In this document: positions 137-33,429 of the stretch, piece by piece
Layout: each line of letters starts with the position of its first letter
Position numbering within the stretch: position 1 is the stretch's first letter
DNA from: a virus
Virus record (IMG/VR): IMGVR_UViG_3300013131_000093
Location: 1 to 41,939 of that record
Reading direction: 5' to 3' (one strand)
DNA length: 41,939 nucleotides
Program-made: the position numbers and the translations under genes
The notes under the pieces: generated by a model
Databases searched by the model: none
Told to the model about the DNA's origin: nothing
Seen by the model: only the letters and a program-made list of their open reading frames with translations

Positions 137-643
137 TTATACTCCTAATCCTACGGAAATAACTCTCCATTTTTGTGCTGTCTGATCATATATCAAATTA
201 ATTGAATTGTTAGGATTAAGGGTAATATTTTGACTACTATTAGTTAGAATTCTTTGATCTGTACTTATAGATGTATCATTATGTTTTATAACTATATTAT
301 TTGATCCTATATTAGTTAATATTCTAAGCTCTCCCTCTGTTCCGGCTCCTATACCTATAATATTATTTGTTGAGCTTGATGATAATTTTATCCATGTCGC
401 ATTTATAACTGGTATGCTGTTGTTCTCAATATCTAAAGATAAAGAAGACGAGGCGAATACTGTTCTTGGAAAGAATGGTGCCGCTCTACCTCTAGGTCCT
501 CTTGGTCCCGGAGGCCCTGGCGGACCTTCTGGCCCAGTTTTTCCCTCTGGACCAACCAAAGCCTGAATAATAGTATTAGTATAATTATTATCAGATATAT
601 TTAATATCTCTGTTTCATTCACAAATATAGTTTGTTCTGCCAT
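137..643 (-). CDS. Collagen-like fibre or tail protein
   Basis: A 168-residue protein with about seven Gly-X-Y triplets at residues 31-52, rich in Pro at X, followed by a beta-rich C-terminal part with many Asn, Ser, Thr and Ile. Short collagen-like repeats are common in phage tail fibres, where they form triple-helical stalks. The polar beta-type C-terminus fits a trimerising tip (inference). It begins 2 nt downstream of the stop of the 489-residue structural gene, so the two are probably co-transcribed. The exact position in the virion cannot be read from the sequence. Confidence 0.7.
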   Translation of the reverse strand: MAEQTIFVNETEILNISDNNYTNTIIQALVGPEGKTGPEGPPGPPGPRGPRGRAAPFFPRTVFASSSLSLDIENNSIPVINATWIKLSSSSTNNIIGIGAGTEGELRILTNIGSNNIVIKHNDTSISTDQRILTNSSQNITLNPNNSINLIYDQTAQKWRVISVGLGV

Positions 644-11781: not shown

Positions 11782-12598
11782 CTTGTTCTACGCTTTCTGG
11801 TGTTAAGAAAGGTTTATCTAGTGTGCCGTCCTCGAATGTATGGTATTCAAATAGTTTCTCTTTAGCTTTGTTAGTTGCTAAATTAAGAATTTCCATTTCT
11901 CTACCTTCTTTTTCACGAATAGCTTCGTCTTCTAACATACGAATTAATCCTACCCAACTACTTTTACCATCTTCGATTCTTTTAATTCTTTGCTCTCTTG
12001 TGGCTTTTAGATCCTTGCTAATCTTTTGCTGTTCATTTAAAAGCTTAGTATACTCATTAGTATAATTAGCAATACTATTTCGTGCAAAACTTAATTGAGT
12101 TTCTAAATTTGCTAGTTTAGGAATATCTCTTTCTGTTTCTGGTTTAGCATATTGAGCGTCTACTAGTTTCTGAAGTTTTTCAGTATCTGTGATGTGTCTT
12201 TTTCTTTCTTTCATACTTCTGTTAATAAGAATGTCTATGGTGATAAATTGTTTAATCTGTAATTCTTCTGCTGGTAAAACATCTTCACGAAACTGTTTCA
12301 TCAATCCTATCCAAGTATCTTCAAAATATTTTAATTCTCCGCTTTCTTCATCAAACTGCCTGAGAATTTCTGACCAAAAAGTTTTTAGATGTAGTCTTTT
12401 AATCAGATAATCGTCTGTTTTTTTGGTATCATCAGTAACATCCAGATTATTTTCTACTATATATCTTTGTATAGGAGCTGGACTTCTATTAAGCTCCTGA
12501 GCAATAGCTTCTATGCTAATACTGCCAGCATTTTCAGTAATGAATTTTTCTTCATCGAGGCTTAGTTGTCCTCTTTTCTTAGGTGGTTGTTTTTCCAC
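11774..12598 (-). CDS. HTH plus coiled-coil protein, possible terminase small subunit
   Basis: A 274-residue protein starting with GTG (complement of 12596-12598), with GGAG about 9 nt upstream. Residues 12-48 form a helix-turn-helix (FITENAGSISIEAIAQELNR). The rest is almost entirely charged coiled coil. An N-terminal HTH with an oligomerising helical body in the operon of the large terminase fits a DNA-recognising small terminase, although it is longer than usual (about 150-200). It overlaps the sigma-like gene by 37 nt and gmd by 8 nt. A structural or regulatory DNA-binding role remains possible. Confidence 0.5.
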   Translation of the reverse strand: MEKQPPKKRGQLSLDEEKFITENAGSISIEAIAQELNRSPAPIQRYIVENNLDVTDDTKKTDDYLIKRLHLKTFWSEILRQFDEESGELKYFEDTWIGLMKQFREDVLPAEELQIKQFITIDILINRSMKERKRHITDTEKLQKLVDAQYAKPETERDIPKLANLETQLSFARNSIANYTNEYTKLLNEQQKISKDLKATREQRIKRIEDGKSSWVGLIRMLEDEAIREKEGREMEILNLATNKAKEKLFEYHTFEDGTLDKPFLTPESVEQDE

Positions 12599-13260
12599 TC
12601 TGTTGTCTCCATTAGATTAGCAATATGCTGTTGTAGTTTAACTAAATGATGTTTAGGCACTTTTGTTCCGTGTTTTATTTTTAAATAAAATTCTCTATAT
12701 TCAATACCTATATTATTATCTAAAAACTCGATAATCTCTTTGCTCTGTACCCAATTTTGAAGATCACCCTTAGCGTGACTAATATCAAAACCATTATCCA
12801 TATGACTTGGTTGCATAATATTTTTCTTAGCACTATTTCTAGTATTCCAACTAGCATATAGTTCGCATTCATTCTTGTTTAAGAACTTAGAACATTGATT
12901 AGTCGAACACTGAAAATTTTTATCAAAAAAGGGACAAGTCAAACAAGGTTTATCTGGTCTTTGATAGTTGTCTCTTTTGTAATTAAAAAGCCTGTTACGA
13001 ACATGAGTCCATAAGAAATTTTCTAAAGGTCTGCTTCTGTCGTATTTTTCTAGTCCCTCTAATGCAAAAATAGCTGCTTGCTGTTTCATATCGTCAAAAT
13101 CATGATATCCAAATTTAAATTTATGACCTAATCTCTTAGATATATTATCTAAAACGGTCAAAAACTCTTGTTCACTAACATTATTGGGTAAATTATTTTT
13201 GACTACTTTTTTCGGTTTCTTTTTCTTCACTATTTTCGGACGGATTTTCTTTTTGCTCAT
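12562..13260 (-). CDS. Sigma-70-like factor with a cysteine-rich insert
   Basis: A 232-residue protein. Residues 55-101 match sigma-70 region 2: DFDDMKQQAAIFALEGLEKYD, then a PLENFLWTHVRNRLFNYKRDNYQRP helix with the aromatic/basic -10-melting face. After this come cysteines at 106, 109, 118, 123 and 132, looking like a metal site, and an unassigned C-terminal domain in place of a clear region 4. The N-terminus is Lys-rich and probably flexible. It sits at the head of the virion block and is a good candidate for directing late transcription, as gp55 does in T4 (analogy). The start has no strong Shine-Dalgarno and lies inside the previous small gene, so coupling is likely. Confidence 0.7.
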   Translation of the reverse strand: MSKKKIRPKIVKKKKPKKVVKNNLPNNVSEQEFLTVLDNISKRLGHKFKFGYHDFDDMKQQAAIFALEGLEKYDRSRPLENFLWTHVRNRLFNYKRDNYQRPDKPCLTCPFFDKNFQCSTNQCSKFLNKNECELYASWNTRNSAKKNIMQPSHMDNGFDISHAKGDLQNWVQSKEIIEFLDNNIGIEYREFYLKIKHGTKVPKHHLVKLQQHIANLMETTEWKNNHLRKEDN

Positions 13261-13729: not shown

Positions 13730-13770
13730 GGGGGATTTCAGGGTAAAATTTGGAATCCCTCATCTTTTTT
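13730..13770 (+). terminator. Intrinsic terminator
   Basis: GGGATT at 13732-13737 pairs with AATCCC at 13754-13759, followed by T6 at 13765-13770. It ends the transcript of the small AT-hook-like gene, just ahead of the exported-protein gene. Confidence 0.7.
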
Positions 13771-13788
13771 AACCAGGAGATTAATCTA

Positions 13789-14076
13789 ATGAAATTGTTT
13801 AGTTGTATGTTGGTTTTGTTTATGGTCATGATGGTGGGAAATAATAGTTATGCTTGTGAGTGGGTAAGGGCTCGACCAATTCAGACAGTAGTGGTATATG
13901 CTTATCCACCTTCGGTATACAATGTTTATCCCGTTTATATTGCTCCTCAGCCTCAACCAGTAGTAACCTATGAAACGGTTTTGGTTCCTGTGGTGCAGCA
14001 AGGGGTACAGTGGGTTTGGCCAAATTATTATCAGGTACAGCCGGTATATATTAGACCAACATTAATAAGGTACTAA
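13789..14076 (+). CDS. Small secreted Tyr/Pro/Val-rich protein
   Basis: 95 residues from the ATG at 13789 with CAGGAGA 8 nt upstream. It has a signal peptide (MKLFSCMLVLFMVMMVGNNSYA, cleavage probably after SYA at about 22), then a mature part of repeated V-Y-P-V-Y-I/V-x-P motifs. There are no catalytic motifs. Proteins of this style are frequent in the secretomes of some aquatic bacteria including Planctomycetes (recalled, not checked). It stands alone between two terminators. In a phage it could be an envelope-modifying or superinfection factor, but no function is assigned. Confidence 0.7.
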   Translation: MKLFSCMLVLFMVMMVGNNSYACEWVRARPIQTVVVYAYPPSVYNVYPVYIAPQPQPVVTYETVLVPVVQQGVQWVWPNYYQVQPVYIRPTLIRY

Positions 14077-14150: not shown

Positions 14151-14172
14151 AATGTATATAAAGGAGAATTTT

Positions 14173-15999
14173 ATGTGTGGTATAATGGGTTACAAGGGAA
14201 ACAAGAAGTGTTTGCCAATTATATTAGATGGACTTAAACGACTAGAATATAGAGGATATGATAGTGCTGGAGTATCCTATATAATAGGCAATAAATTAAT
14301 TACATTTAAAAGTCCTGGATGTGTTAATGAGTTAATTAATAATTGGATAGATTTTGATATGCCAAGTAATATTGGTATAGGTCATACTAGATGGGCAACA
14401 CACGGTCAACCATCTCAAAGAAACGCTCACCCTCATACTACTAGCGACGATAGATTAAGCATCGTTCATAATGGAATTGTAGAAAATTATGTAGCATTAC
14501 AAAAAGAATTAATAGATAAAGGTTACTTATTTGTTTCGGAAACAGATACAGAAGTTTTATTATATTTAATATACGATTATTTAGTAATAGAAAATTTACC
14601 ATTATTTGAAGCTGTTAAATTTGCTCTAGAAAGAGTTGTTGGGGCGTATGCTATATGCGTCATAGATAAAAAAGATCCAGAAAATATAGTAGCTGCTAGA
14701 AAAGGAAGTCCTCTTGTTGTAGGTTTGGGCGAACCGGGAGAATTTTATGTTGCTAGTGATCAATTAGCTTTAGTAGGATATACAAATGATATTGTTGTAT
14801 TAGAAGATAATGTTGTTGTGGAACTAAAAGATCAATTAACTTGCTATGATATGAGAAATAAAAAAATATCTCAATGCAATATATCTAAACTATATAATCA
14901 AATATACAATATTGAAAAAAATGGATACGATCATTTTATGATCAAAGAAATATATGAACAGCCTAGAGTTGTAGCAGACTGTTTGAGTGGTAGGATTGAT
15001 GGTTATAGGATAAAACTTGGAGGTTTATTTGGTTATGAAAATATCTTAAGTACTGCGGATCATATTACTATACTTGCATGTGGATCATCGTGGCACGCTG
15101 GATTAATAGCAAAATATTATTTTGAAGAATTTTGTGGAATAAAAACTAGCGTGGAATATGCTAGTGAATTTAGATATAGAAAACCAGTTATTAATGAAGA
15201 CGATATTGTAATAGCTATATCACAAAGTGGCGAAACAGCTGATACTATTAATGCTGCAAATTTAGCAAAATCCAAAGGGGCTATTGTTATTGGAGTTTGT
15301 AATGTAGCAGATTCTTCGTTAGTTAGATTAACAGAGTGCGGAGTATATTGTAGGGCTGGCGCAGAGATAGGGGTGGCCAGTACAAAAGCTTTTATGTCTC
15401 AAGTAATAGTATTATTATTAATAGCACTATGGATAGAACAATATAGAGACTCTAGAATGTTAATAGATTATAGACAAGCTATTATAGATGATTTAAAAAA
15501 ATTACCAATAGTATTAGAAGAAGTATTAAAGTTAAATAAAAATATAAGAAAACTTGGTGCTAAGTTCCATAAATCTAAAAATTGCATTTATCTAGGAAGA
15601 GAATATAATTTTCCTGTAGCCTTAGAAGGAGCATTAAAATTAAAAGAAATATCTTATATTCATGCTGAAGGATATCCTGCTGCCGAAATGAAACATGGTC
15701 CTATAGCTTTAATAGATAAAAATATGCCGGTAATTGTTGTGTCTAACAACAAAAAACAATATAGTAAAATTGCAAATAATATCAAAGAGATACAAGCTAG
15801 GAGCGGAGAAGTTATAGAGGTTTATGCAGAAGATAGGTTTTCTGGTGATTATGGATTAAAAGTTCCTAGTGTGGTTGATCCCGTAAGTCCTTTGATATCT
15901 AGTATGGTATTACAATTATTTGCATATTATTGTGCTATTTTGAGTGGTCACGATGTTGATAAACCAAGAAACCTAGCCAAAAGCGTAACTGTAGAATAA
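14173..15999 (+). CDS. glmS: Glutamine--fructose-6-phosphate aminotransferase (isomerising)
   Basis: 608 residues. The start is the ATG at 14173 so that Cys2 becomes the N-terminal nucleophile; AAGGAG is 6 nt upstream. The N-terminal Ntn amidotransferase domain shows CGIMGY, YRGYDSAG, HTRWATHG (71-78) and HNGIVEN (99-105). Two SIS sugar-isomerase domains follow (ILACGSSWHAG, AISQSGETADT, EGALKLKEISYIHAEGYPAAEMKHGP), and it ends with LAKSVTVE as full-length GlmS does. It makes glucosamine-6-phosphate from fructose-6-phosphate and glutamine. It overlaps the acetyltransferase gene by 1 nt. Codons are AT-rich like the late genes. A complete GlmS is unusual in a phage. Confidence 0.97.
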   Translation: MCGIMGYKGNKKCLPIILDGLKRLEYRGYDSAGVSYIIGNKLITFKSPGCVNELINNWIDFDMPSNIGIGHTRWATHGQPSQRNAHPHTTSDDRLSIVHNGIVENYVALQKELIDKGYLFVSETDTEVLLYLIYDYLVIENLPLFEAVKFALERVVGAYAICVIDKKDPENIVAARKGSPLVVGLGEPGEFYVASDQLALVGYTNDIVVLEDNVVVELKDQLTCYDMRNKKISQCNISKLYNQIYNIEKNGYDHFMIKEIYEQPRVVADCLSGRIDGYRIKLGGLFGYENILSTADHITILACGSSWHAGLIAKYYFEEFCGIKTSVEYASEFRYRKPVINEDDIVIAISQSGETADTINAANLAKSKGAIVIGVCNVADSSLVRLTECGVYCRAGAEIGVASTKAFMSQVIVLLLIALWIEQYRDSRMLIDYRQAIIDDLKKLPIVLEEVLKLNKNIRKLGAKFHKSKNCIYLGREYNFPVALEGALKLKEISYIHAEGYPAAEMKHGPIALIDKNMPVIVVSNNKKQYSKIANNIKEIQARSGEVIEVYAEDRFSGDYGLKVPSVVDPVSPLISSMVLQLFAYYCAILSGHDVDKPRNLAKSVTVE

Positions 16000-16439
16000 T
16001 GTTTTATATTAGACCCATATCTATATATGATAATTTAAATGAATATATGAGGTGTGTGGAGGATCTAAACGGTTCTGATGTTAGTGTCAGCAATGAACAA
16101 GAAATGAGGGGATGGTTATTTTCTAGACCAGACAATATTGTAACATATGTATGTGTTTATAATAGAAAAATAGTTGCTACGGCTACTTGTTTGTTTGAAA
16201 GAAAACTAAGATACAATCAGTTGTGCTGTCATTTGGAGGATGTGGGAGTTGTGCAAGAGTGTCGTTCTATGGGTTTGGGGCGATTGATAGTTAACTATTG
16301 TGTGGGCGAAGCAAAATTTAGAGGATGCTATAAGATAAAGCTTCATTGTAGCGATAAGCTTCTTGGTTTCTATGAGCATCTAGGTTTTGTAAAAATTAAT
16401 AATGGAATGGAAAAAAATATCAATAAACTGGCCAATTAG
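15999..16439 (+). CDS. GNAT acetyltransferase, GNA1-like (glucosamine-6-phosphate N-acetyltransferase)
   Basis: A 146-residue GNAT protein. The core CHLEDVGVVQECRSMGLGRLIV (78-98) has the acetyl-CoA pyrophosphate loop RSMGLG, followed by GCYKIKLHCSDKLLGFYEHLGF (109-130). The H-x-E-D-V-x-V, GCYK and C-S-x-x-x-x-x-FYE-x-x-GF spacing is what I recall of GNA1, the eukaryotic-type enzyme that makes GlcNAc-6-P. It is 1-nt coupled to glmS, whose product would be its substrate, which supports the assignment. Bacteria normally use GlmM/GlmU in another order, so this route is notable. Confidence 0.75.
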   Translation: MFYIRPISIYDNLNEYMRCVEDLNGSDVSVSNEQEMRGWLFSRPDNIVTYVCVYNRKIVATATCLFERKLRYNQLCCHLEDVGVVQECRSMGLGRLIVNYCVGEAKFRGCYKIKLHCSDKLLGFYEHLGFVKINNGMEKNINKLAN

Positions 16440-25237: not shown

Positions 25238-25239
25238 TT

Positions 25240-25312
25240 GGCCCCATCGTCTAGTGGCCTAGGACAACGGATTTTCGTTCCGTTTACCGGGGTTCGAATC
25301 CCCGTGGGGTCA
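25240..25312 (+). tRNA. tRNA-Glu (UUC)
   Basis: Full cloverleaf: acceptor GGCCCCA/TGGGGTC, anticodon stem ACGGA/TCCGT with loop TTTTCGT giving UUC, T-arm GGTTCGAATCC. CCA is not encoded. Confidence 0.95.
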
Positions 25313-25317
25313 TTTGT

Positions 25318-25390
25318 GGTCCGGTAGCCCAACGGCAGAGGCGATAGACTCAAAATCTATTTGTTGTGGGTTCGAGTCCCACCTGGACTA
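25318..25390 (+). tRNA. tRNA with anticodon CAA (Leu by code) but class I shape
   Basis: Acceptor GGTCCGG/CTGGACT with two G-U pairs, anticodon stem ATAGA/TCTAT and loop CTCAAAA, giving CAA. The variable region is about 5 nt, whereas bacterial tRNA-Leu normally has a long variable arm. T-arm GTGGGTTCGAGTCCCAC. Confidence 0.85.
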
Positions 25391-25440
25391 CCTAAACTGA
25401 TAGGATCGGCACCGTGGCGATAGTCAGTACCATCTGTGGG
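25391..25440 (+). repeat. GTAGTCAGC element, copy 2 (divergent)
   Basis: GATAGGATCGGCACCGTGGC then GATAGTCAGTACC, between tRNA-CAA and the next promoter. Confidence 0.55.
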
Positions 25441-25442
25441 TC

Positions 25443-25470
25443 TTGACAAAAAATAAATATCAGATAGAAT
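25443..25470 (+). promoter_or_regulatory. Promoter of the 25496 unit
   Basis: TTGACA, 16 nt, TAGAAT; no CGATAA word. Confidence 0.8.
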
Positions 25471-25495
25471 ACAACTAAATAGGAGAGTATTGAAT

Positions 25496-25792
25496 ATGAA
25501 ACCAGAAGATGTTATAAATGGTTTGATCGCTGCTGATGATCTTCATTGGTGCGAAGAGGAACAAAAATATATCCTATTGACAATGGATGAGGTCGATGGT
25601 ATACTGCAAGCCTGTGCTGACAACGGTATGACCGAAGAACATATGGAATATGTTATGAATGTTGTCAAGTGGTGTGAACGAGTGCGTGCTGGTCAACTGT
25701 TGTGGAAAAACTTTGTGGCTGGTCATGTATGTGTTGACGGCTTTGATGAAACTGGAGAGCCTTTCTTTGCAAAGTGTCCACCTAATGAGTGA
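25496..25792 (+). CDS. Unknown acidic protein
   Basis: 98 residues from the ATG at 25496 (GGAGAG upstream; a TTG at 25490 is an alternative). MKPEDVINGLIAADDLHWCE... helical, with several Cys and Trp. No family. Overlaps the next gene by 8 nt. Confidence 0.65.
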   Translation: MKPEDVINGLIAADDLHWCEEEQKYILLTMDEVDGILQACADNGMTEEHMEYVMNVVKWCERVRAGQLLWKNFVAGHVCVDGFDETGEPFFAKCPPNE

Positions 25793-25949
25793 TATTACTT
25801 TTAGTGAAGTTGAGCATTTGGCTAATGGAAAGCAACTAGCATTGGTTTGTCATTATCATTATGAACTGAAAAATGGTGATGGTGCGGTAGTTTACTGGTC
25901 TTATTTTTTGGAAGATATCGAAAACTTTTTGAGGACTTATCATGCCTAA
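25785..25949 (+). CDS. Small unknown protein
   Basis: 54 residues: MSDITFSEVEHLANGKQLAL, then VCHYHYELKNGDGAVVYWSYFLEDIENFLRTYH, a beta-hairpin plus helix. Overlaps both neighbours by 8 nt, suggesting coupled translation. Confidence 0.6.
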   Translation: MSDITFSEVEHLANGKQLALVCHYHYELKNGDGAVVYWSYFLEDIENFLRTYHA

Positions 25950-26439
25950 CTGGTGCTTGAACAAGTTGACCGTTTCCCATACCGACAAGGCTGCTATGGA
26001 TCGGTTTGTATCCGCATACAACAAGGGAACTCTGTGCCAAGAGTTTCTTCCTATGCCAGAAGATATTGGTGATGGTTGGTATGATTGGTGCATCAACAAC
26101 TGGGGAACAAAGTGGGATGTGGGTGCTGATGAAGGTACAGAGAAGGAAGAACGATATGGCTTGAAGGCTACTACTGTTGGAAATGAGGCTTGTTGCTCTT
26201 TTGACTCTGCTTGGGCTCCTCCCGTTGGTTTGTACGAAAAACTGGACGAGTTGGGCTATAAGATTCATGCTAGTTATTTTGAGCCGGGTATGGCTTTTTG
26301 TGGAGTGTGGGCTGACGGATTCGACAACTATATCGAGTATAAGAGTAAGGATATGATTCCTATGGGTATCTGGAATGATTTTGGATTGACAGACTTCTTT
26401 CAAGATGAGGAAGAGATCGAATCTTCAGAAAGCGTCTAA
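25942..26439 (+). CDS. Api92/YubB-like ferredoxin-fold protein (DUF1281-like)
   Basis: 165 residues. It begins MPNWCLNKLTVSHTDKAAMD and contains WCINNWGTKWDVG near residue 50-65 and AWAPPVGLYEKLDELGY, the marks of the YubB/DUF1281-type proteins found on phages and plasmids (fold ferredoxin-like; function unknown). GAGGA precedes the ATG. The C-terminus is acidic. Confidence 0.8.
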   Translation: MPNWCLNKLTVSHTDKAAMDRFVSAYNKGTLCQEFLPMPEDIGDGWYDWCINNWGTKWDVGADEGTEKEERYGLKATTVGNEACCSFDSAWAPPVGLYEKLDELGYKIHASYFEPGMAFCGVWADGFDNYIEYKSKDMIPMGIWNDFGLTDFFQDEEEIESSESV

Positions 26440-26453
26440 ATAAGCGGGTTCGC

Positions 26454-26534
26454 TCTAAATCCAAGAATATCAAGGGTTTAGGGCAAACCGGCCCGTGGAG
26501 GCTGAACGCAAACCCTTGTAGAGCATCGACTTAG
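26454..26534 (+). repeat. Dispersed four-arm element, copy 13
   Basis: CTAAATCCAAGAAT, TCAAGGGTTTAGGG, AAACCGGCCCG centre, CGCAAACCCTTGTAG and CGACTTAG. The central AAACCGGCCCG recurs in copy 21 as CAAACCGGCCCGCG. Confidence 0.85.
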
Positions 26535-26553
26535 ATTTTCTGGATTTTGTCTC

Positions 26554-26581
26554 TTGACAAGCCGATAATAGTTGATAGAAT
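26554..26581 (+). promoter_or_regulatory. Promoter of the 26601 gene, class B
   Basis: TTGACA, 16 nt with CCGATAATA, TAGAAT. Confidence 0.85.
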
Positions 26582-26600
26582 GCTGGAAAAGGAGATTCAC

Positions 26601-26855
26601 ATGCTTACGCGATATGCTCTTAGCGATAATGTTGACCGGTGGGTGAGCCATGATGGTGGCACTATCAAGTTTAGTGGCAATACCATGAGCGGCCGTCCGT
26701 TTGAAATCGTAACCTATCTTAATGATGCTAATAGGTGGGCTAACGGCGAATGTATTCAAACCTGTTTTCCTTATCTCTCGTCGGAAGAAAGGGAGATTCT
26801 GATTACTGGGCACGATGATGAATCTTGGGCTTTGCTTTTCGGAGAGGCTGAATAA
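26601..26855 (+). CDS. Small unknown protein
   Basis: 84 residues from the ATG at 26601 with AAAAGGAGA upstream. MLTRYALSDNVDRWVSHDGG, then FEIVTYLNDANRWANGECIQ and SSEEREILITGHDDE: alpha/beta, acidic. No family recognised. Confidence 0.65.
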   Translation: MLTRYALSDNVDRWVSHDGGTIKFSGNTMSGRPFEIVTYLNDANRWANGECIQTCFPYLSSEEREILITGHDDESWALLFGEAE

Positions 26856-26877
26856 AAATATTCTAAAGCAAACCCTA

Positions 26878-26905
26878 TTGACAAGCCGATAATAGAGTGT
26901 AGAAT
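26878..26905 (+). promoter_or_regulatory. Promoter of a candidate non-coding RNA, class B
   Basis: TTGACA, 16 nt with CCGATAATA, TAGAAT. No open frame with a ribosome site follows for 260 nt. Confidence 0.85.
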
Positions 26906-26911
26906 ACAAAA

Positions 26912-27100
26912 AGTAGCGGTGGAGTGCCAGAGATAACTTCATACTAAGCCGTGACAAGATAGAGAAGAAGCACTAAACTTGTCGTACTACTTCAAATATT
27001 CGTGGGTTCATGCCTGGGACTAGATAGGAATAAGCCATTACGATAAACTCGGACTGCGTAAGACGAGTTGACACTGGGCTTATACAGTGTATAGTAATGC
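26912..27100 (+). ncRNA. Candidate structured RNA 1
   Basis: From the predicted start downstream, several long-range pairings can be drawn: AGTAG/CTACT, TGACAAG/CTTGTCG, AACTCG/CGAGTT, TAGATAGG/CCTATCTA, plus CATTAC/GTAATG and ATAAGCC/GGCTTAT, which cross each other and so imply a pseudoknot or alternative fold. A second promoter (27068) lies inside the 3' part. No reading frame of note. 3' end unknown. Confidence 0.55.
27068..27095 (+). promoter_or_regulatory. Promoter of the 27170 unit
   Basis: TTGACA, 16 nt, TATAGT. The leader contains a CTATC/GATAG hairpin. Confidence 0.75.
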
Positions 27101-27169
27101 CTATCTATGAGGGATAGCGTCCTCACCACGACCAATACAACCAGTAACCGTTTTAGCAATGAGGGTATA

Positions 27170-27427
27170 ATGACCGTTAACGAACTTATTGAACAGTTGA
27201 AGAACTATCCCGGTGATACTAGGGTGCTTACTCTTGGTTATGAGGGTGGGTATCACGATATTAGGCTAGATAATAATGATATTGTGTTCGATGTTAAGCG
27301 TGGTGATGGTGCTTGGTATTATGGGCCTCATGAGTGTGTTAAATTTACTGATGAAGAAACTGGGACTCCGTGTTTGATTATTACAAGGGAAATTACTAGG
27401 GTTACTGATAAACATGGATTGGAATAA
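27170..27427 (+). CDS. Small unknown protein
   Basis: 85 residues from the ATG at 27170 (GAGGG 5 nt upstream; an earlier in-frame ATG at 27107 lies close to the predicted start and has no site). MTVNELIEQLKNYPGDTRVL, LGYEGGYHDI... The helix plus strand start is common in phage proteins that regulate or bind small ligands, but no family is assigned. Confidence 0.65.
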   Translation: MTVNELIEQLKNYPGDTRVLTLGYEGGYHDIRLDNNDIVFDVKRGDGAWYYGPHECVKFTDEETGTPCLIITREITRVTDKHGLE

Positions 27428-27683
27428 CTCTCATAAGAATCCGCCAACTGAGGGCCAGAAAGTTTATTATTTTGGAGAAAATATTGGTATAGGTATTGGA
27501 CACTATAGGTATAAAGAAAATAGTGTATACGGTATCGAACTTTGTCCACATCTATTTAAGAATGTTGATTGGGGTTTGGTAGATGCTTGTGATGCTCCTT
27601 ACTGGCTACCATACGATGAGGAGCGAGCAAAAAGTTGGTGTCCTATTATTCCAGAAAAATATACTACAGGATTATACGACTGA
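27414..27683 (+). CDS. Unknown protein, weakly DUF551-like
   Basis: 89 residues overlapping the previous gene by 14 nt. MDWNNSHKNPPTEGQKVYYF ... WLPYDEERAKSWCPIIPEKY has the W-x-x-P...V and closing W-x-P-I/L-P pattern of DUF551-type phage proteins. No Shine-Dalgarno is evident, so translation is probably coupled. Confidence 0.55.
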   Translation: MDWNNSHKNPPTEGQKVYYFGENIGIGIGHYRYKENSVYGIELCPHLFKNVDWGLVDACDAPYWLPYDEERAKSWCPIIPEKYTTGLYD

Positions 27684-27685
27684 TT

Positions 27686-27820
27686 ATGGAACTAAAAACT
27701 CTTAGTGATATTTGTCCATGTGGACTTTGTAGTGTGGCAGCATACACTCTGGATCGTAATGGTATATGGTGGTTCTATTGCGACAAATGCTATTGGTGGT
27801 ATATCGGAAACTCTTACTGA
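27686..27820 (+). CDS. Tiny putative zinc-ribbon protein
   Basis: 44 residues: MELKTLSDICPCGLCSVAAY...WWFYCDKCYWWYIGN. Two Cys knuckles (CPCGLC, CDKC) 20 residues apart. The stop lies at the start of four-arm element copy 14. Confidence 0.6.
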   Translation: MELKTLSDICPCGLCSVAAYTLDRNGIWWFYCDKCYWWYIGNSY

Positions 27821-27886
27821 TAAAGGGTTTGCGACGATCCTGCCCGAGGAGGTTATTCGTAAAACCTTGAGAATACAAGACTTAGG
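27820..27886 (+). repeat. Dispersed four-arm element, copy 14 (first arm missing)
   Basis: ATAAAGGGTTTGCG, CTGCCCGAGG centre, TCGTAAAACCTTGAG and CAAGACTTAGGG, then T6. Confidence 0.75.
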
Positions 27887-27904
27887 GTTTTTTAAAGAAT
27901 ACTC

Positions 27905-27932
27905 TTGACGATACCGATCTATACTGTATACT
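27905..27932 (+). promoter_or_regulatory. Promoter of the 27944 frame, class B-like
   Basis: TTGACG, 16 nt with CCGATCTAT, TATACT. Confidence 0.75.
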
Positions 27933-27943
27933 TAAGGGGAACA

Positions 27944-28099
27944 ATGGACGGGGATAGCCACAATGATATCAAAAGAGGCTATCTGAAATGCTGGTCGAGT
28001 ATGGCGGAAGCCGACATTGTTTTTCCTAATCCTACGGATTTGGCTAGAGTGGCTGTAGTCAGCGAAAGTTTAAAGGTCTTGACAAGTACTGGTCGATAA
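27944..28099 (+). CDS. Small frame containing a GTAGTCAGC element
   Basis: 51 codons from ATG 27944 with AAGGGGA 4 nt upstream and a promoter at the right distance: MDGDSHNDIKRGYLKCWSSM. The C-terminal part is translated from the repeated element (NPTDLARVAVVSE) and the stop lies inside the next promoter. It could be a real small protein, a leader peptide, or chance coding across a regulatory element. Confidence 0.4.
   Translation: MDGDSHNDIKRGYLKCWSSMAEADIVFPNPTDLARVAVVSESLKVLTSTGR
28021..28068 (+). repeat. GTAGTCAGC element, copy 3
   Basis: CCTAATCCTACGGATTTGGC then TAGAGTGGCTGTAGTCAGCG; 11 nt before the next -35. Confidence 0.75.
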
Positions 28100-28107
28100 G
28101 GTATACT
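28079..28107 (+). promoter_or_regulatory. Promoter giving a predicted leaderless mRNA (28114 gene)
   Basis: TTGACA, 17 nt with TCGATAAGG, TATACT, AGCAAC, ATG. Confidence 0.8.
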
Positions 28108-28113
28108 AGCAAC

Positions 28114-28596
28114 ATGAAACAGAACCAACTACATGGCGAAGTAAGGTTTCATCTTGGTGGTGGGGCTCATTATATGCACTGGCAAGTGCGAATCAAGCAG
28201 GGCGGTAAAACTGTTGACGTGTATTATTACGACCCTAATGAATATCAGTTGGAAATGAGGGGCTGTAGGCTGCGTAATCGTCCTAATAAAGCCAAGCAAG
28301 TTTTTGAGGCTGGTGTGCATGATGTGAGCGGGTGGATTCGGTGTGAAGAAACCATGCTTCGCAAAAGTTTTTATCCGGTTTTGCCTGTTGACAATCTTGA
28401 AAAGTTGTATTATAATCCGCTTCGTGATCCACACTGGCGTCGTGAAAGTGATAACAATGAGTTTATCTGGGATGAAACACAATACGCTACACTGATTACA
28501 AGTGGCAAGCAAGTTTATATTCTAGAAGAACGAGATTGTGCATTTGACAATATTAGAGAAATAGACCCAAAGTATTTAGAAGGATTTAATGTATGA
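28114..28596 (+). CDS. Conserved phage-type protein, unknown function, predicted leaderless
   Basis: 160 residues (MKQNQLHGEVRFHLGGGAHY). RFHLGGGAHYMHWQV, VDVYYYDPNEYQLEMRGCRL and QVFEAGVHDVSGWIRCEE resemble a phage protein family I have seen in several phage groups without a function. Ends overlapping the next gene by 4 nt (ATGA). Confidence 0.65.
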   Translation: MKQNQLHGEVRFHLGGGAHYMHWQVRIKQGGKTVDVYYYDPNEYQLEMRGCRLRNRPNKAKQVFEAGVHDVSGWIRCEETMLRKSFYPVLPVDNLEKLYYNPLRDPHWRRESDNNEFIWDETQYATLITSGKQVYILEERDCAFDNIREIDPKYLEGFNV

Positions 28597-28961
28597 TTAG
28601 TATTCAGGTGACGATTGCCGAGGCTATTGCTATTGCTAACACGGCGGGTAACGATCTGCATGATCGTATCGTGAAGGTTATTGAGGTGGCTCTTGGCGTC
28701 AACCAGAGTCGTGATGTGACCATCACCAAGATGCCGGGAGACAATCGTCTCGCTTGTATCAAGAGTATTCGTTTGCACTCTGGCTGGAGTTTGAAAGAGG
28801 CCAAGGAATGGACGGATACTCTGGTGGGGCGATACGACAGCACTTATGGTAAGTGGATTAACGGCGCTAGTAAGAGTACTATCAAGTTGCCTACTCCCGA
28901 TGCAGCCGAGACTCTGTTGCGTGAACTGACCACTTTGGGCTGCGAGGGATACCTCTCTTAA
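28593..28961 (+). CDS. Ribosomal L7/L12 C-terminal-domain-like protein
   Basis: 122 residues. Residues 52-120 have the pattern of the bL12 C-terminal/ClpS-like fold: IKSIRLHSGWSLKEAKEWTD (56-75, as in IKxVRxxTGLGLKEAK) and a final AETLLRELTTLGCEGYL. The N-terminal 50 residues are not the L12 stalk-binding domain. Host bL12 C-termini recruit translation factors, so a free phage copy could compete for or recruit them (inference). Coupled by ATGA to the previous gene. Confidence 0.7.
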   Translation: MISIQVTIAEAIAIANTAGNDLHDRIVKVIEVALGVNQSRDVTITKMPGDNRLACIKSIRLHSGWSLKEAKEWTDTLVGRYDSTYGKWINGASKSTIKLPTPDAAETLLRELTTLGCEGYLS

Positions 28962-29043
28962 ACTAAAGCCTTGCTGCGTAAAGCTTTACGCCAAGGCGAG
29001 ACGGCGACAGAAAACGCAAACCCTTGATACTGCTAAACTTAGG
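28962..29043 (+). repeat. Dispersed four-arm element, copy 15
   Basis: CTAAAGCCTTGCTG, CGTAAAGCTTTACGCC, AAGGCGAGACGGCG centre, CGCAAACCCTTGAT and AAACTTAGG. Confidence 0.8.
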
Positions 29044-29073
29044 AAAAATCAAAGAAAGATTCAATGTAGAGGG

Positions 29074-29101
29074 TTGACAATGACGATAACCATGATATAC
29101 T
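29074..29101 (+). promoter_or_regulatory. Upstream promoter of the 29232 gene, class B
   Basis: TTGACA, 16 nt with ACGATAACC, TATACT; about 85 nt before a second promoter. The segment between has no frame. Confidence 0.8.
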
Positions 29102-29160
29102 GATAGCATCACACGACAAGACGCTAGTTGAGAGCAACCAACAAAGTTTCAACTTAGCAC

Positions 29161-29188
29161 TTGACAGGTGATGTTGACGATGTATAAT
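29161..29188 (+). promoter_or_regulatory. Downstream promoter of the 29232 gene
   Basis: TTGACA, 16 nt, TATAAT; ACGATG just before the -10. Confidence 0.85.
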
Positions 29189-29231
29189 ACGTTTACTTGG
29201 TTTGATAACACTTTTGAGAAAGGTTTTTACA

Positions 29232-29483
29232 ATGAAGAAGTTTTCTTTTGCGGTTGATGTTGTTGGTGATGATGTTGATTCGTCGGCTGTTGTTGATGCT
29301 CTGCGTAAGACGCTTACAAGCGAACTCTCCGACGAGGTGTTTGCTAATGTCAAGCCCGCTGGTGTCAAGGCTTTCAGCGAGCAGGGTTATAAGGTGTGGC
29401 GTGCCCGCGTCACTGGTGTGACTGCCGAGCAGGCCGGTGATGCTCACGATGGCAAGATCGCCAAGGAGGAGGCTACTGCCTGA
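29232..29483 (+). CDS. Small unknown protein
   Basis: 83 residues from the ATG at 29232 (AAAGG about 10 nt upstream): MKKFSFAVDVVGDDVDSSAV, then a helix and WRARVTGVTAEQAGDAHDGK. Strand-helix-strand, Asp-rich start. Codons are GC- and C-richer than the neighbours. Two tandem promoters suggest strong expression. Confidence 0.65.
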   Translation: MKKFSFAVDVVGDDVDSSAVVDALRKTLTSELSDEVFANVKPAGVKAFSEQGYKVWRARVTGVTAEQAGDAHDGKIAKEEATA

Positions 29484-29484
29484 C

Positions 29485-29512
29485 TTGACAAACTGGACTG
29501 TGCCAGTATAAA
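29485..29512 (+). promoter_or_regulatory. Promoter of candidate structured RNA 2
   Basis: TTGACA, 16 nt, TATAAA, starting at the stop codon of the 29232 gene. Confidence 0.8.
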
Positions 29513-29518
29513 TAGGTT

Positions 29519-29709
29519 TTAGGCACAGTGCGGCGGGATAACTTCCCGCGTAATATGCCGGGGATTCAACCGGCCTAGCAGAGTCTAACCAACTAATAAC
29601 CAGCGTGGTTGCTGGGAAGGGGTCTGCTGCTAGTAATATAGCGATGGTAAAGTGATCCCACCATCTAACCGTATAGCCCGCACGGGACGCCGTGACGGGC
29701 TTTCGGCAA
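29519..29709 (+). ncRNA. Candidate structured RNA 2, upstream of tRNA-Arg
   Basis: About 190 nt without a frame and much more GC-rich than its surroundings, packed with clear helices in order: GCGGGA/TCCCGC; GCCGG/CCGGC; CTAGCAGA paired with TCTGCTGCTAG enclosing CCAGC/GCTGG; GATGG/CCATC; and AGCCCGCACGG/CCGTGACGGGCT. It has its own promoter and ends just before tRNA-Arg, so the tRNA-processing machinery may make its 3' end. It does not match RNase P RNA, tmRNA or 6S RNA as I know them. Confidence 0.7.
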
Positions 29710-29713
29710 TAGA

Positions 29714-29785
29714 GGCCCCATAGTTAAATGGATATAACAAGTGCCTTCTAAGCACTGGTTAGAGGTTCGATTCCTCTTGGGGCTA
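29714..29785 (+). tRNA. tRNA-Arg (UCU)
   Basis: Acceptor GGCCCCA/TGGGGCT, anticodon stem AGTGC/GCACT with loop CTTCTAA, giving UCU, and T-arm GAGGTTCGATTCCTC. Decodes AGA. Confidence 0.95.
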
Positions 29786-29789
29786 TTTC

Positions 29790-29872
29790 TCTAAAGCATT
29801 GAAGCGTAAGGCTTTGCGAATATTGTGGGCGGAGGCGAAAATCATAAACCTTTGTGATTCAAGGATTTACGC
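29790..29872 (+). repeat. Dispersed four-arm element, copy 16
   Basis: CTAAAGCATTGAAG, CGTAAGGCTTTGCG, TGTGGGCGG centre, CATAAACCTTTGTG and CAAGGATTTACGC. Confidence 0.85.
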
Positions 29873-29899
29873 ATAAAATCTTTTCTTCAAGAATAGGGC

Positions 29900-29928
29900 T
29901 TGACTGTACCGATAATCTAGTGTAGAAT
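29900..29928 (+). promoter_or_regulatory. Promoter of the 29953 gene, class B
   Basis: TTGACT, 17 nt with CCGATAATC, TAGAAT. Confidence 0.85.
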
Positions 29929-29952
29929 CGAGAGACACGCTAGGAGAAAGTG

Positions 29953-30663
29953 ATGAAAACTGCAAACGGTAATGACAAGTTAGGTAAGGAAAACTGTATC
30001 GTCGTGTCTCGTCCCGTTGGCGATACTTGTCCACCAGACTGTGATTTTTTGGGTAATGGTTGCTATGCCGAGGACTTGGAAAATATCTATCCCGGTGTGC
30101 GTCCTGCTGGTATGCAGAATCTTATCACGGAAAAAAACCGTATCCGTTCGATGTTGGTCGATGCTGTCAAGAAAAATAAAGATGTTCGCTGGCATGAACG
30201 CGGCGACTTTTTCAAGGACGGTCAACTCGACAATGAATATGTCGATAATGTATTGTGGGCTTGTGAGAGTATCGTGGCCGATGGCGGTAGTCTGCCAACA
30301 ATGTGGGCATATACTCATATTTATGATACTAGACTGTCTACTGAACTTGGTAAGTATATAAATATGTATGCTAGTATCCATGATGGCGAAGATATGAAAC
30401 AGGCAAAGGCCGCTGGTTTTAGGCATTTTGCGTGGTGCGATAGTGATACTAAGATTGCCCCTAAGCGTCCGCGTAGTAAGGCTAAAGCCGACGCATGGCG
30501 AGCAGCATTACCGAAACTGGTTGTCTTAGAGGGGGTAAAGTTTATCACTTGCCCGGAAATCCGTCGTGGTCGTGGTGTCGTCACTTGCACGAAAACTAAA
30601 AATAGCGTACACTGTGATTTGTGTCCGCGTGGCTTGGCTAATGTTTTGTTTCCCTCCCACTGA
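29953..30663 (+). CDS. Cysteine-cluster phage protein (GP88/DUF7227-like)
   Basis: 236 residues from ATG 29953 (AGGAGAAA upstream; a GTG at 29950 is equally placed). Early IVVSRPVGDTCPPDCDF...GCYAED gives a C-x3-C-x6-C cluster. WHERGDFFKDG and TMWAYTHIYDTRL follow, with late Cys positions in FITCPEI and HCDLCPRGL. I recall this arrangement from phage proteins of unknown function that may bind a metal or Fe-S cluster. Biochemical role unknown. Confidence 0.7.
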   Translation: MKTANGNDKLGKENCIVVSRPVGDTCPPDCDFLGNGCYAEDLENIYPGVRPAGMQNLITEKNRIRSMLVDAVKKNKDVRWHERGDFFKDGQLDNEYVDNVLWACESIVADGGSLPTMWAYTHIYDTRLSTELGKYINMYASIHDGEDMKQAKAAGFRHFAWCDSDTKIAPKRPRSKAKADAWRAALPKLVVLEGVKFITCPEIRRGRGVVTCTKTKNSVHCDLCPRGLANVLFPSH

Positions 30664-30670
30664 GGATAAG

Positions 30671-30907
30671 ATGAAAAGTTTTACATATGAGTGCGTTACT
30701 CTTGAAGATATTTGTAAGCATAATCATTTGAATCATGCCGAAATAATGGATGCTGTTTCTAATAGTGATGTATCTTTTGGTACTAATGCTGACACTCTAA
30801 TGACTAGAAGTATGTTACAGGACATTGTGGACGATTGGTTTGATAATCCTACACAGTTAGATTGGTGCGGCTACGATGATCGTATCCTCATTAGTCTAGG
30901 AAGTTGA
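30671..30907 (+). CDS. Small acidic protein
   Basis: 78 residues from ATG 30671 with GAGGA upstream. MKSFTYECVTLEDICKHNHL, DAVSNSDVSFGTNADTLMTR: a helix-turn-helix-like first half and an acidic second half. Follows the 29953 gene by 7 nt in the same unit. Confidence 0.65.
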   Translation: MKSFTYECVTLEDICKHNHLNHAEIMDAVSNSDVSFGTNADTLMTRSMLQDIVDDWFDNPTQLDWCGYDDRILISLGS

Positions 30908-30908
30908 T

Positions 30909-30989
30909 CTAAAGCCTTAATACGCAAGGGTTTGCGTCAAGGCGACACGTCAAGAAAAGACATAAACCATTGATACGTAACGACTTAAG
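30909..30989 (+). repeat. Dispersed four-arm element, copy 17
   Basis: CTAAAGCCTTAATA, CGCAAGGGTTTGCG, AAGGCGACACG centre, CATAAACCATTGAT and CGACTTAAG. Confidence 0.85.
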
Positions 30990-31006
30990 ATTCTAAAGAA
31001 TCAGCA

Positions 31007-31034
31007 TTGACAATGCCGATAAATAGTGTAGAAT
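31007..31034 (+). promoter_or_regulatory. Promoter of the kinase-like gene, class B
   Basis: TTGACA, 16 nt with CCGATAAAT, TAGAAT. Confidence 0.85.
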
Positions 31035-31078
31035 ACAAGCAACTAAACGGGTATTTCTTATGTCTAGATGGAGTGAAA

Positions 31079-31678
31079 ATGGCTAAGAATAAGTTTTCTT
31101 ATGTGGGTAAGTATGCTGATGGAGGGAGTCAAAACTCTTTCTACAAAGTAAAGAATACCAAATACGGATTCAAAAGTTTTCCAAATAAAAGTTTAGCAAC
31201 ATTCGCACATAAGGTACAATCTGTATTGTCCCAAGATATTCTTGCTCCAAAAGTTTTTAGTCCCGTTTGCAGGATCAGGATTCCTAACTTCTTTATGGGT
31301 CGTGGAGGTAAAACAGAGACTCACATGATTCTGAGCGATTGGGGTTATCTTACTGAAATCGCTTTACCTTTTAGATGTAAGTCTGATGACTATTGTGATG
31401 GAGACTGTGCTCATAATACAGGGTGTGTGCATCATGATACTATTTGTAATCTTATTGATGATATTGGTGGTTGCGGGCTAGACTACATTGATGCACATGA
31501 GTACAATCTAGGGTATGTCAAAAGAGGAAAGAATAAGTTTTTGGTAGTTATTGATGTCGGTGCCGAGAGCATTAGTCCTCAAGATGATGAGGATTATTAT
31601 CCCGAAGTGTGTTGGGATGGTTCGGAAGATATGGAGTGTTGCTGTGAACAATGTAGGAGCAAATACGCATATGCCTAA
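31079..31678 (+). CDS. Minimal protein-kinase-like protein
   Basis: 199 residues from ATG 31079 (GGAG 6 nt upstream). The order of features follows a small kinase fold: Gly-rich loop GKYADGG (10-16), lysine of the VAIK type in YGFKSF (Lys32), helix C, LAPKVFSPV, hinge THMILSDWGY (81-90), catalytic loop IDAHEYNLG (Asp138, Asn143: the D-x4-N spacing of HRDLKPEN) and IDVG (Asp159) in the DFG place. A Cys-rich insert (100-116) and a Cys-rich tail (178-192) are unusual. All catalytic positions are present, so it may be an active kinase or a pseudokinase-derived binder. Confidence 0.55.
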   Translation: MAKNKFSYVGKYADGGSQNSFYKVKNTKYGFKSFPNKSLATFAHKVQSVLSQDILAPKVFSPVCRIRIPNFFMGRGGKTETHMILSDWGYLTEIALPFRCKSDDYCDGDCAHNTGCVHHDTICNLIDDIGGCGLDYIDAHEYNLGYVKRGKNKFLVVIDVGAESISPQDDEDYYPEVCWDGSEDMECCCEQCRSKYAYA

Positions 31679-31931
31679 GTATTATATTAAGTGTGGTTCT
31701 TTGGAACTCAAGTACAGTACAAATAAAAGCCCTATTGAAGCAGCCGTGGTTGCTATAAATGAAACAAACAAGTTTGATGTTTTAGACGAATATTTTTATA
31801 TTGATGAGCGAGGTTTTAGAGACTATATTAGTGCTGATAAAACTACGCAAGTAATCAAACTAAATAAAGTAGCCAAAATCGCAGGATGGAGAATCAATAA
31901 AGAACAAGATTCTGATTGCGAGGGATTCTGA
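31671..31931 (+). CDS. Small conserved-looking unknown protein
   Basis: 86 residues, overlapping the kinase-like gene by 8 nt. MPKYYIKCGSLELKYSTNKS, PIEAAVVAINETNKFDVLDE and YFYIDERGFRDY suggest a compact alpha/beta domain; I recall related short sequences from environmental bacteria and phages but cannot name the family. Confidence 0.6.
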   Translation: MPKYYIKCGSLELKYSTNKSPIEAAVVAINETNKFDVLDEYFYIDERGFRDYISADKTTQVIKLNKVAKIAGWRINKEQDSDCEGF

Positions 31932-32014
31932 CATAACTCTTTGTGGCGTAAGGCTTTGAGCCTAGCCACTCTGGGCGACATTTTCCACAAACCACTGTCA
32001 ACAAACAACTTAGG
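31932..32014 (+). repeat. Dispersed four-arm element, copy 18
   Basis: CATAACTCTTTGTGG, CGTAAGGCTTTGAG, CTGGGCGACA centre, CACAAACCACTGTC and CAACTTAGG. Confidence 0.75.
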
Positions 32015-32030
32015 AAAACTAAAGAATCGG

Positions 32031-32059
32031 TTGACAGATACCGATAAATATGGTATGCT
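32031..32059 (+). promoter_or_regulatory. Promoter of the 32082 gene, class B
   Basis: TTGACA, 17 nt with CCGATAAAT, TATGCT. Confidence 0.75.
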
Positions 32060-32081
32060 CATCAGAAGAAAAGGAGAAAGG

Positions 32082-32450
32082 ATGATCCAGTGGATTGGGG
32101 TGATTATAGCGTTACTCGGAATGGCCTATAACGGTGTAAAAGACTATCAAAAGGGTGATATTAAACTACCACAACTGCCAGAAAAACAAGTATTGACAAA
32201 ACCCGTTTATCCAGTACAATACTGTCTGATGGCTTATGATCCTAATGTAGATAAGGTTTTTTATCAGCACGAAAATGGACAATGGTATGAGTATGCACCA
32301 CCTCAACGACGATATGCGACCCAAACGCAACCACAACAAAATCAAAATCAAGGTCAAGAAACCTTGGGAGTTGTCTACGGGTCATCGAGAGCATCGGGAT
32401 ACCATTATGGACAACAGGCCCAAGCGTCAGCGAACACGACGAGATATTGA
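32082..32450 (+). CDS. Exported or membrane-anchored Gln-rich protein
   Basis: 122 residues from ATG 32082 with AAGGAGAAAGG upstream. Short N-terminal hydrophobic helix (MIQWIGVIIALLGMAYNGV) without an obvious cleavage site, then a Pro/Gln/Tyr-rich low-complexity tail (QTQPQQNQNQGQE). Probably anchored to the inner membrane with a disordered tail outside. Unknown role. Confidence 0.6.
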   Translation: MIQWIGVIIALLGMAYNGVKDYQKGDIKLPQLPEKQVLTKPVYPVQYCLMAYDPNVDKVFYQHENGQWYEYAPPQRRYATQTQPQQNQNQGQETLGVVYGSSRASGYHYGQQAQASANTTRY

Positions 32451-32478
32451 GCGTGCTTGGCAAGAGGAGTATGAATGA
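32407..32478 (+). CDS. Tiny basic frame overlapping two genes
   Basis: 23 codons (MDNRPKRQRTRRDIERAWQE) within the end of the 32082 gene in another frame, ending at the start of the 32475 gene. Possible coupling frame for 32475; no good ribosome site, low support. Confidence 0.25.
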   Translation: MDNRPKRQRTRRDIERAWQEEYE

Positions 32479-32672
32479 TGTATCACTATATTACAGTACA
32501 GGTTGTTATGCGTGACTGTAAAAATAAAGAGGATGCCGAAGCAAAATGTTCTAGACTTTTACCGTATCATCCAGATGAAAATACAAGACATATGGAATCT
32601 TGGGAGATCGTAAGGGTGGCAGAGGCTAGGCCGTATTATAGCGAACAGTGTGTTGACAATATACAAGATTAG
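32475..32672 (+). CDS. Small unknown protein
   Basis: 65 residues, ATG 32475 with GAGGAG upstream (MMYHYITVQVVMRDCKNKED). First strand plus Asp/Lys-rich helix (AEAKCSRLL) reads like a small ferredoxin-like domain. Ends just before the tRNA-Met promoter's -10. Confidence 0.6.
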   Translation: MMYHYITVQVVMRDCKNKEDAEAKCSRLLPYHPDENTRHMESWEIVRVAEARPYYSEQCVDNIQD

Positions 32673-32680
32673 TATATGAT
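32653..32680 (+). promoter_or_regulatory. Promoter of the tRNA-Met/Thr/Gln cluster
   Basis: TTGACA, 16 nt, TATGAT, overlapping the end of the 32475 gene; the tRNA starts 12 nt after the -10. Confidence 0.8.
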
Positions 32681-32691
32681 ATATAATATGT

Positions 32692-32767
32692 TGGGGAGTA
32701 GAGTAGTCCGGTCTAACTCACTGGTCTCATAAGCCAGTATTCGTTGGTTCAAATCCAACCTCCCCCA
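32692..32767 (+). tRNA. tRNA-Met (CAU)
   Basis: Anticodon stem CTGGT/GCCAG with loop CTCATAA. Acceptor TGGGGAG/CTCCCCC has a U1-C72 mismatch. It may be elongator Met, initiator-like or tRNA-Ile2 (C34 modified); the sequence alone does not decide. Confidence 0.9.
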
Positions 32768-32771
32768 TTTT

Positions 32772-32843
32772 GCCCGCATAGTATAATGGCTATTACAGTT
32801 GATTTGTAATCATCGGATACTAGTTCGATTCTAGTTGTGGGCT
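32772..32843 (+). tRNA. tRNA-Thr (UGU)
   Basis: Acceptor GCCCGCA/TGTGGGC; anticodon loop TTTGTAA, giving UGU; one U-U mismatch in the anticodon stem. Confidence 0.88.
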
Positions 32844-32914: not shown

Positions 32915-32929
32915 TATAAAGGAGATATT

Positions 32930-33349: not shown

Positions 33350-33353
33350 TTTT

Positions 33354-33426: not shown

Positions 33427-33429
33427 TTT

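Follow-up and report, generated by a model that had tools for sequence, protein, structure and literature searches.

A conserved glmS–GNA1-type gene pair in tailed phages as a putative virus-encoded UDP-GlcNAc supply

Why should a tailed phage carry, end to end, the genes for a glutamine–fructose-6-phosphate aminotransferase (GlmS) and for an acetyltransferase resembling GNA1, the eukaryotic enzyme that acetylates glucosamine-6-phosphate (GlcN-6-P)? The question is raised by a 41,939 nt IMG/VR fragment, here called the window, which is part of the genome of such a phage. The minus strand of the window carries structural genes, the terminase and a small operon that includes gmd, and the plus strand carries the GlmS/GNAT pair, followed by a long stretch in which small ORFs are accompanied by 12 tRNA genes (Table 1). 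The same sequence is found within an 84.7 kb sister contig (IMGVR_UViG_3300014720_002243), with all three of the stretches compared being identical. A first-pass annotation of the window had read the pair as a eukaryotic-style route to GlcNAc-6-phosphate (GlcNAc-6-P). We judge it to be a real, conserved and virus-encoded supply of UDP-GlcNAc, in which activity on GlcN-6-P is predicted from the protein sequences.

Table 1 Features of the window, in order of position
Feature	Position	Strand	Evidence
Tail-fibre-like protein, collagen-like Gly-X-Y repeats	137..643	-	PF01391 5.7e-4 and PHROG tail fibre matches
Terminase large subunit, marker for tracing the phage lineage	8041..10071	-	PHROG phrog_2 1.6e-21
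gmd, predicted GDP-mannose 4,6-dehydratase, 330 aa	10789..11781	-	PF16363 (GDP_Man_Dehyd) 1e-114
Sigma-70 region-2-like protein, divergent operon, kept in relatives	12562..13260	-	PF04542 1e-4, under cut-off
Small secreted-looking Y/P/V-rich protein, immediately 5' of glmS	13750..14076	+	ORF and neighbour reading
Shine-Dalgarno-like AGGAG, 6 nt 5' of GlmS ATG	14162..14166	+	Sequence read directly
glmS, glutamine--fructose-6-phosphate aminotransferase (isomerizing), 608 aa	14173..15999	+	TIGR01135, PRK00331, PF01380, PF13522, PDB
GNA1-type (predicted glucosamine-6-phosphate) N-acetyltransferase, GNAT fold, 146 aa	15999..16439	+	PF00583 2e-13, PDB, Foldseek, residues

The first gene of the pair encodes a full-length GlmS, predicted to form GlcN-6-P from fructose-6-phosphate and glutamine. 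It scores 744.8 bits against TIGR01135 (cut-off 418.05) over positions 1–607 of 607 and 756 bits against PRK00331, and in the PDB it matches the E. coli GlmS structures 4amv/1jxa at ~1e-152 across residues 1–608. An N-terminal Cys2 amidotransferase domain is followed by two SIS domains, and the characteristic motifs are intact: MCGI at residue 1, HTRWATHG at 71, NGIVEN at 100, CGSSW at 303, ISQSGET at 349, ASTKAF at 402 and KSVTVE at the C-terminus. The MCGI N-terminus makes the catalytic cysteine residue 1 once the methionine is removed. An in-frame ATG at 14152, present in the ORF list, is unlikely to be the start; the ATG at 14173 lies behind AGGAG.

In Pfam and NCBIfam the second protein finds nothing more specific than generic GNAT families. 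When its sequence is searched against the PDB, however, the nine best matches are all GNA1 chains, led by yeast at 1e-12 and followed by human, Arabidopsis, T. brucei, A. fumigatus and C. elegans. A profile built from 24 relatives finds GNA1 at 1e-34 to 1e-27, ahead of a next group that reaches 1e-21 at best. For an AlphaFold2 monomer model of the window protein (pLDDT 94.3), GNA1 entries fill the first 23 places among the Foldseek matches. Residues E80, D81, V82, K112, C117 and Y125 align to yeast E98, D99, I100, K130, C135 and Y143, and correspond to C. elegans E104, D105, V106, K136, C141 and Y149, which hold GlcN-6-P or line the site (PMC3413214). We take the protein to be of GNA1 type, homology pointing to GlcN-6-P as its substrate. 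Both identifications made in the first-pass annotation, a phage-encoded GlmS and a GNA1-like acetyltransferase at 14173-16439, are upheld by these results.

Eukaryotic GNA1/GNPNAT1 enzymes (yeast 1i12/1i1d, human 2huz, Arabidopsis 3t90, A. fumigatus 2vez, C. elegans 4ag7) have in common with the phage protein their fold, the E-D-V/I and CYK motifs and the Cys and Tyr residues, but identity is only 26–31% in structure alignments and the two differ at the C-terminus. The C. elegans enzyme has a conserved Met (M161) and a C-terminal Arg (R164) that helps in phosphate binding (PMC3413214). The window protein keeps the Met, as M137 in alignment A4 (a pairwise alignment placed it two positions off), but has no Arg at +3; there is instead a Lys at +2, both here and in locus L093, and in T. 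brucei GNA1 the Arg is at +1 rather than +3. In most phage copies the C-terminal basic residue (yeast Arg158, the M-R of others) is absent or moved, so that substrate specificity could have shifted. The phage clade also has an extra Lys/Arg two residues after K112, at window position 114 within the CYKxKL strand; Lys 114 would lie on the same strand face as K112 and might compensate for the lost residue.

The two genes overlap by a single nucleotide at position 15999, the last A of the GlmS stop codon TAA being the first A of the GNAT ATG, and are therefore probably translationally coupled. The arrangement is not peculiar to the window. Related phages were gathered by a terminase search of viral contigs that gave 119 related stretches, the best 80 of which were kept as loci, some of them on contigs of up to 233 kb, and a scan for GNA1 identified 28 viral loci. 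In the window lineage and in L076, L084, L093, L099, L101 and L110–L112 the two genes are directly coupled, overlapping by 1 or 4 nt or separated by a single nucleotide, bearing out in diverged relatives the coupling that the first-pass annotation had claimed. Elsewhere a gene lies between glmS and GNA1, encoding a small secreted-type protein in L047/L097 and an S8 protease in L095. In some relatives fcl joins the operon: Fcl, GlmS and GNA1 are consecutive in L099, L101 and L110; Fcl and GNA1 occur without GlmS in L100 and L103–L108; L109 has GNA1 alone, and L009, L010 and L030 have GlmS without GNA1. GNA1 with no GlmS near by is also found in the huge-phage records LR745206 (635 kb) and LR756511 (595 kb) and in two contigs, one of 436 kb and one of 343 kb. 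In close pairs dN/dS is 0.08–0.17 for GNA1 and 0.03–0.10 for GlmS, and the pair is under purifying selection in phages. Chance, an ORF artefact and an assembly error are excluded by the E-values, the identical 84.7-kb sister, the conserved gene order and the dN/dS values of 0.03–0.17.

Other neighbours recur around these genes. The small Y/P/V-rich protein encoded just before glmS in the window found no family match, and look-alikes adjoin glmS in L009, L010, L030, L047 and L095. A subtilisin-like S8 protease with an LExRxLLS-like N-terminus adjoins glmS/GNA1 in four loci (L047:2090-3757, L009:4829-6394, L010:7937-9544 and L095:4392-5999) and is not seen beside the window pair. In a 595-kb phage, a nucleotidyltransferase resembling glucose-1-phosphate thymidylyltransferase (L005:14761-15489) is located 6–7 kb from the GNA1-like gene.

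How much of the pathway to a finished sugar nucleotide do the phages encode? A phosphohexomutase (PGM/PMM domain, PF02878) was not found in 17 phage records, with 14 of 14 control genomes positive, and when the relatives G015, G016 and G017 were searched with TIGR01173 (GlmU), the one match was weak and partial (E=1e-6), to a 225-aa NTP-transferase-like ORF in G015. These results imply that the mutase, and probably also the uridylyltransferase, is supplied by the host. The proposal that the pair bypasses GlmM and GlmU thus needs trimming: only the acetyltransferase step of GlmU would be replaced, with a mutase and a uridylyltransferase still needed. Moreover, should the host be a planctomycete with its own GNA1 and a GlmU reduced to its uridylyltransferase part, the pair would copy the host's order and bypass nothing.

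Gmd, encoded on the opposite strand to the pair as first described, scores 391.5 bits against TIGR01472, slightly below the cut-off of 415, over nearly its full length, and most relatives with a locus spanning the region also have gmd. Glycosyltransferases, which the first-pass annotation had proposed to look for, are encoded in the relatives, together with further nucleotide-sugar enzymes, Fcl included. The 233-kb relative G015, which has the pair, carries at ~171–191 kb a cluster that encodes a GT60-type 'Glycosyltransferase (GlcNAc)' (9e-75) along with a GT2+GT4 protein, epimerases and an FkbM methyltransferase, and that also contains a weak match to sulfotransferases. We take GT60 to be a family that glycosylates proteins. 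It is present in three of 22 phage records, most of which are fragments, and was not found in the 84.7-kb sister contig of the window. Besides G015, two members of the lineage carry it, one with GlmS only and the other with neither GlmS nor GNA1 found near its terminase, showing that GT60 is not tightly linked to the pair.

These elements can be assembled into a scheme in which substrate, direction of flux, host and acceptor are all predictions. GlmS would convert fructose-6-P and glutamine to GlcN-6-P, which the GNA1-type enzyme would at once acetylate with acetyl-CoA to GlcNAc-6-P, the sequence of steps that animals, fungi and giant viruses follow; the host phosphohexomutase and uridylyltransferase would carry this on to UDP-GlcNAc. 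Gmd, with Fcl in relatives, would yield a GDP-deoxyhexose, and phage glycosyltransferases would use the sugar nucleotides to decorate virion proteins or surface glycans. We lean towards this reading, that is, a coupled amino-sugar supply module feeding glycan building in a widespread lineage of large, uncultured phages of aquatic type that probably infect Planctomycetota. Decoration of proteins or glycans has some support from the relatives; DNA modification, which had also been suggested, has none in this analysis.

A different use of the same products is possible, although we consider it the less probable one: in a prolonged infection the pair might, instead of decorating the virion, mainly sustain synthesis of the host envelope (peptidoglycan, lipopolysaccharide or exopolysaccharide) or alter the host surface. 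UDP-GlcNAc is a standard envelope precursor, and the glycosyltransferase cluster of G015 would suit such a role. The assignment of GT60 to protein glycosylation, a matter of family knowledge, argues against it, as does the fact that none of the genes noticed next to the pair encodes a peptidoglycan enzyme. In its favour, surveys list both glmS and gmd among viral auxiliary genes (PMC10653327).

Rather unlikely, in our view, is that a GNAT of GNA1 descent has switched to acetylating a different amino sugar, such as a nucleotide-linked 4-amino or 2-amino sugar of the Gmd branch, with GlmS merely adding GlcN-6-P. The loss of the C-terminal basic residue and the lineage-specific gain of Lys/Arg at position 114 would fit such a change, as would the retention of GNA1 with Fcl, but no GlmS, in the seven loci listed above. 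Set against this, the residues equivalent to yeast E98, D99, K130, C135 and Y143 are all kept, profile and fold searches of the PDB place GNA1 far above other GNATs, the gene is repeatedly coupled to GlmS, whose product is GlcN-6-P, and no aminotransferase for GDP-4-keto sugars was seen near by.

Cellular relatives of the phage protein bear both on the pathway and on the host. Among 84,980 species genomes, GNA1-like genes were found almost only in Nitrososphaeria and in Planctomycetota, there mostly in Schlesneria and Gemmataceae; the bacterial ones are nearly all planctomycete. With search patterns taken from huge-phage copies, the list is not exhaustive. These are the closest cellular relatives found, with ~25–40% identity to the window protein depending on the stretch aligned, and most keep a C-terminal M-R or L-R. 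In three planctomycete loci (L140, L144 and L172) GNA1 adjoins glmS. Full-length GlmU was found in none of the 21 GNA1-bearing planctomycetes (the genomes behind L120–L149, L161 and L172) but in 98 of 198 in the rest of a 199-genome Planctomycetota survey (Fisher p=2e-6, uncorrected for shared ancestry). In 14 of the 21 a strong GlmU match covers the uridylyltransferase part only (3 to ~300–320 of 452), and the other seven, whose genomes may be incomplete, have no strong match. Five further planctomycetes in the survey (E 1e-16 to 1e-21) were rejected as GNA1 carriers, four being without the GNA1 motif and the fifth (L201) having I-E-N for E-D and no conserved Cys.

The few GNA1-bearing bacteria seem to have given up the usual bacterial enzyme. 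That they do without a bifunctional GlmU fits the finding that in Planctopirus limnophila the essential part of GlmU is the uridylyltransferase (NTP-transferase) domain only (PMC10632474). The phage pair in this way points to a cellular route, GNA1 planctomycetes probably being an overlooked candidate for a eukaryote-order route to UDP-GlcNAc in bacteria. In Nitrososphaeria, GNA1-like genes lie directly 3' of a sugar-nucleotidyltransferase-like gene (e.g. L136:3273-4438, L150:3289-4426), a neighbourhood that suggests the same order of steps in Thaumarchaeota.

In standard bacteria acetylation follows GlmM and GlcNAc-6-P is off the path. Hence GNA1 could be imagined as a sink or takeover device, draining GlcN-6-P into GlcNAc-6-P that a cell with only GlmM and GlmU cannot use, and so starving the wall or triggering NagA/NagB recycling. 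This strikes us as very improbable: a sink would work without a GlmS of its own, but several diverged phages couple the two genes, and planctomycetes with GNA1 have a GlmU restricted to uridylyltransferase. As for bacterial DNA misassembled into a viral contig, most glmS matches in the GenBank phage collection do look like host DNA, but many independent contigs have the same order next to terminase and portal genes and fall into one phage clade in both trees, and these syntenic relatives refute contamination and leave the idea a negligible chance.

The likeliest hosts, on indirect signs, are Planctomycetota. Tail proteins carry SHD1 and RCC1 domains, which we counted as a host sign, SHD1 being a domain that we take to be linked to planctomycetes, and the LExRxLLS-like N-terminus of the phage S8 proteases presumably corresponds to the planctomycete LEPR-XLL motif. 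A DUF1501 protein in G015 (L216:16029-17276) is 51–53% identical to planctomycete copies, of which some genomes hold ~30. Against these hosts speaks the result that no terminase match turned up in 392 Planctomycetota genomes, which also led to the rejection of a planctomycete prophage or binned phage. In the GNA1 tree the phage lineage forms a single clade (support 100) whose long branch sits next to the planctomycete copies, a position with weak support (81–83). In the GlmS tree it is again one clade (SH-aLRT 100), outside the sampled planctomycetes and with the root unplaced; as this clade lies to one side and is not nested, recent capture of the phage GlmS from sampled Planctomycetota was rejected. 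These trees would allow the two genes to have been transferred together from planctomycetes. The Moraphages (PMC12619734) were considered as the window's lineage and set aside, the paper having nothing on GDP-mannose, glucosamine or planctomycetes and giving mostly Bacteroidota as hosts.

The nearest known precedent is Mimivirus, whose UDP-GlcNAc pathway comprises the GFAT L619, the GNA1 L316 and the UAP R689 (Piacente et al. 2014, as reviewed in PMC9614988, PMC10117803); its GFAT and GNA1 have been assayed for activity, and there too no mutase is found (PMC9614988). In both cases a virus encodes GlmS/GFAT and GNA1 in the eukaryotic order, without a phosphomutase, with precursors for virus glycans as the product or, in the phage, the predicted product, and the putative phage supply would work as the Mimivirus pathway does. 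Mimivirus is, however, a giant virus of eukaryotes with scattered genes, its own UAP and assayed activities, whereas the window belongs to a tailed phage, known from sequence alone, with a single operon and no clear UAP. GlmS itself is among the auxiliary genes of phages and chloroviruses (PMC10653327, PMC12927875, PMC9614988). Full-text searches of open-licence PMC papers turned up neither a GNA1 coupled to it nor any phage-encoded GNA1. Phage glmS having been reported already, what appears to be new is the coupled phage GNA1, and the pair offers a clear and cheap test, both of a phage with the eukaryotic hexosamine order and of a glycosylation target. Among the bacterial-looking glmS records of the GenBank phage collection (AFYI01000003, CAKLQH020000008 and others) are a contig from a Salmonella genome and a record from Acinetobacter in which glmU, glmS and murI are consecutive.

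The tail-fibre-like protein with collagen-like repeats is a possible glycan acceptor. A more specific and, we think, doubtful proposal is that planctomycete phages make GlcNAc-6-P in the eukaryotic manner and spend it, through their own GT60, on virion proteins, whether collagen-like or not, while infecting hosts where GNA1 has replaced the acetyltransferase half of GlmU. If true, phages would have their own equivalent of the glycan machinery known from giant viruses.

The plus-strand region beyond the pair has features of its own. The 12 tRNA genes (Glu, Leu, Arg, Met, Thr, Gln, Asn, Trp, Ser, Tyr, Lys and Gly) lie at 25239-39234. At least 11 copies of a 40-nt element (TAAAGCCTTAATACGCAAGGGTTTGCG...) are scattered at a spacing of ~1–2 kb amid small early-type genes between 16519 and 37517, and several copies of a promoter-like motif, TTGACAAGCCGATAATA...TAGAAT, are found between 20671 and 34931 and are perhaps early phage promoters.
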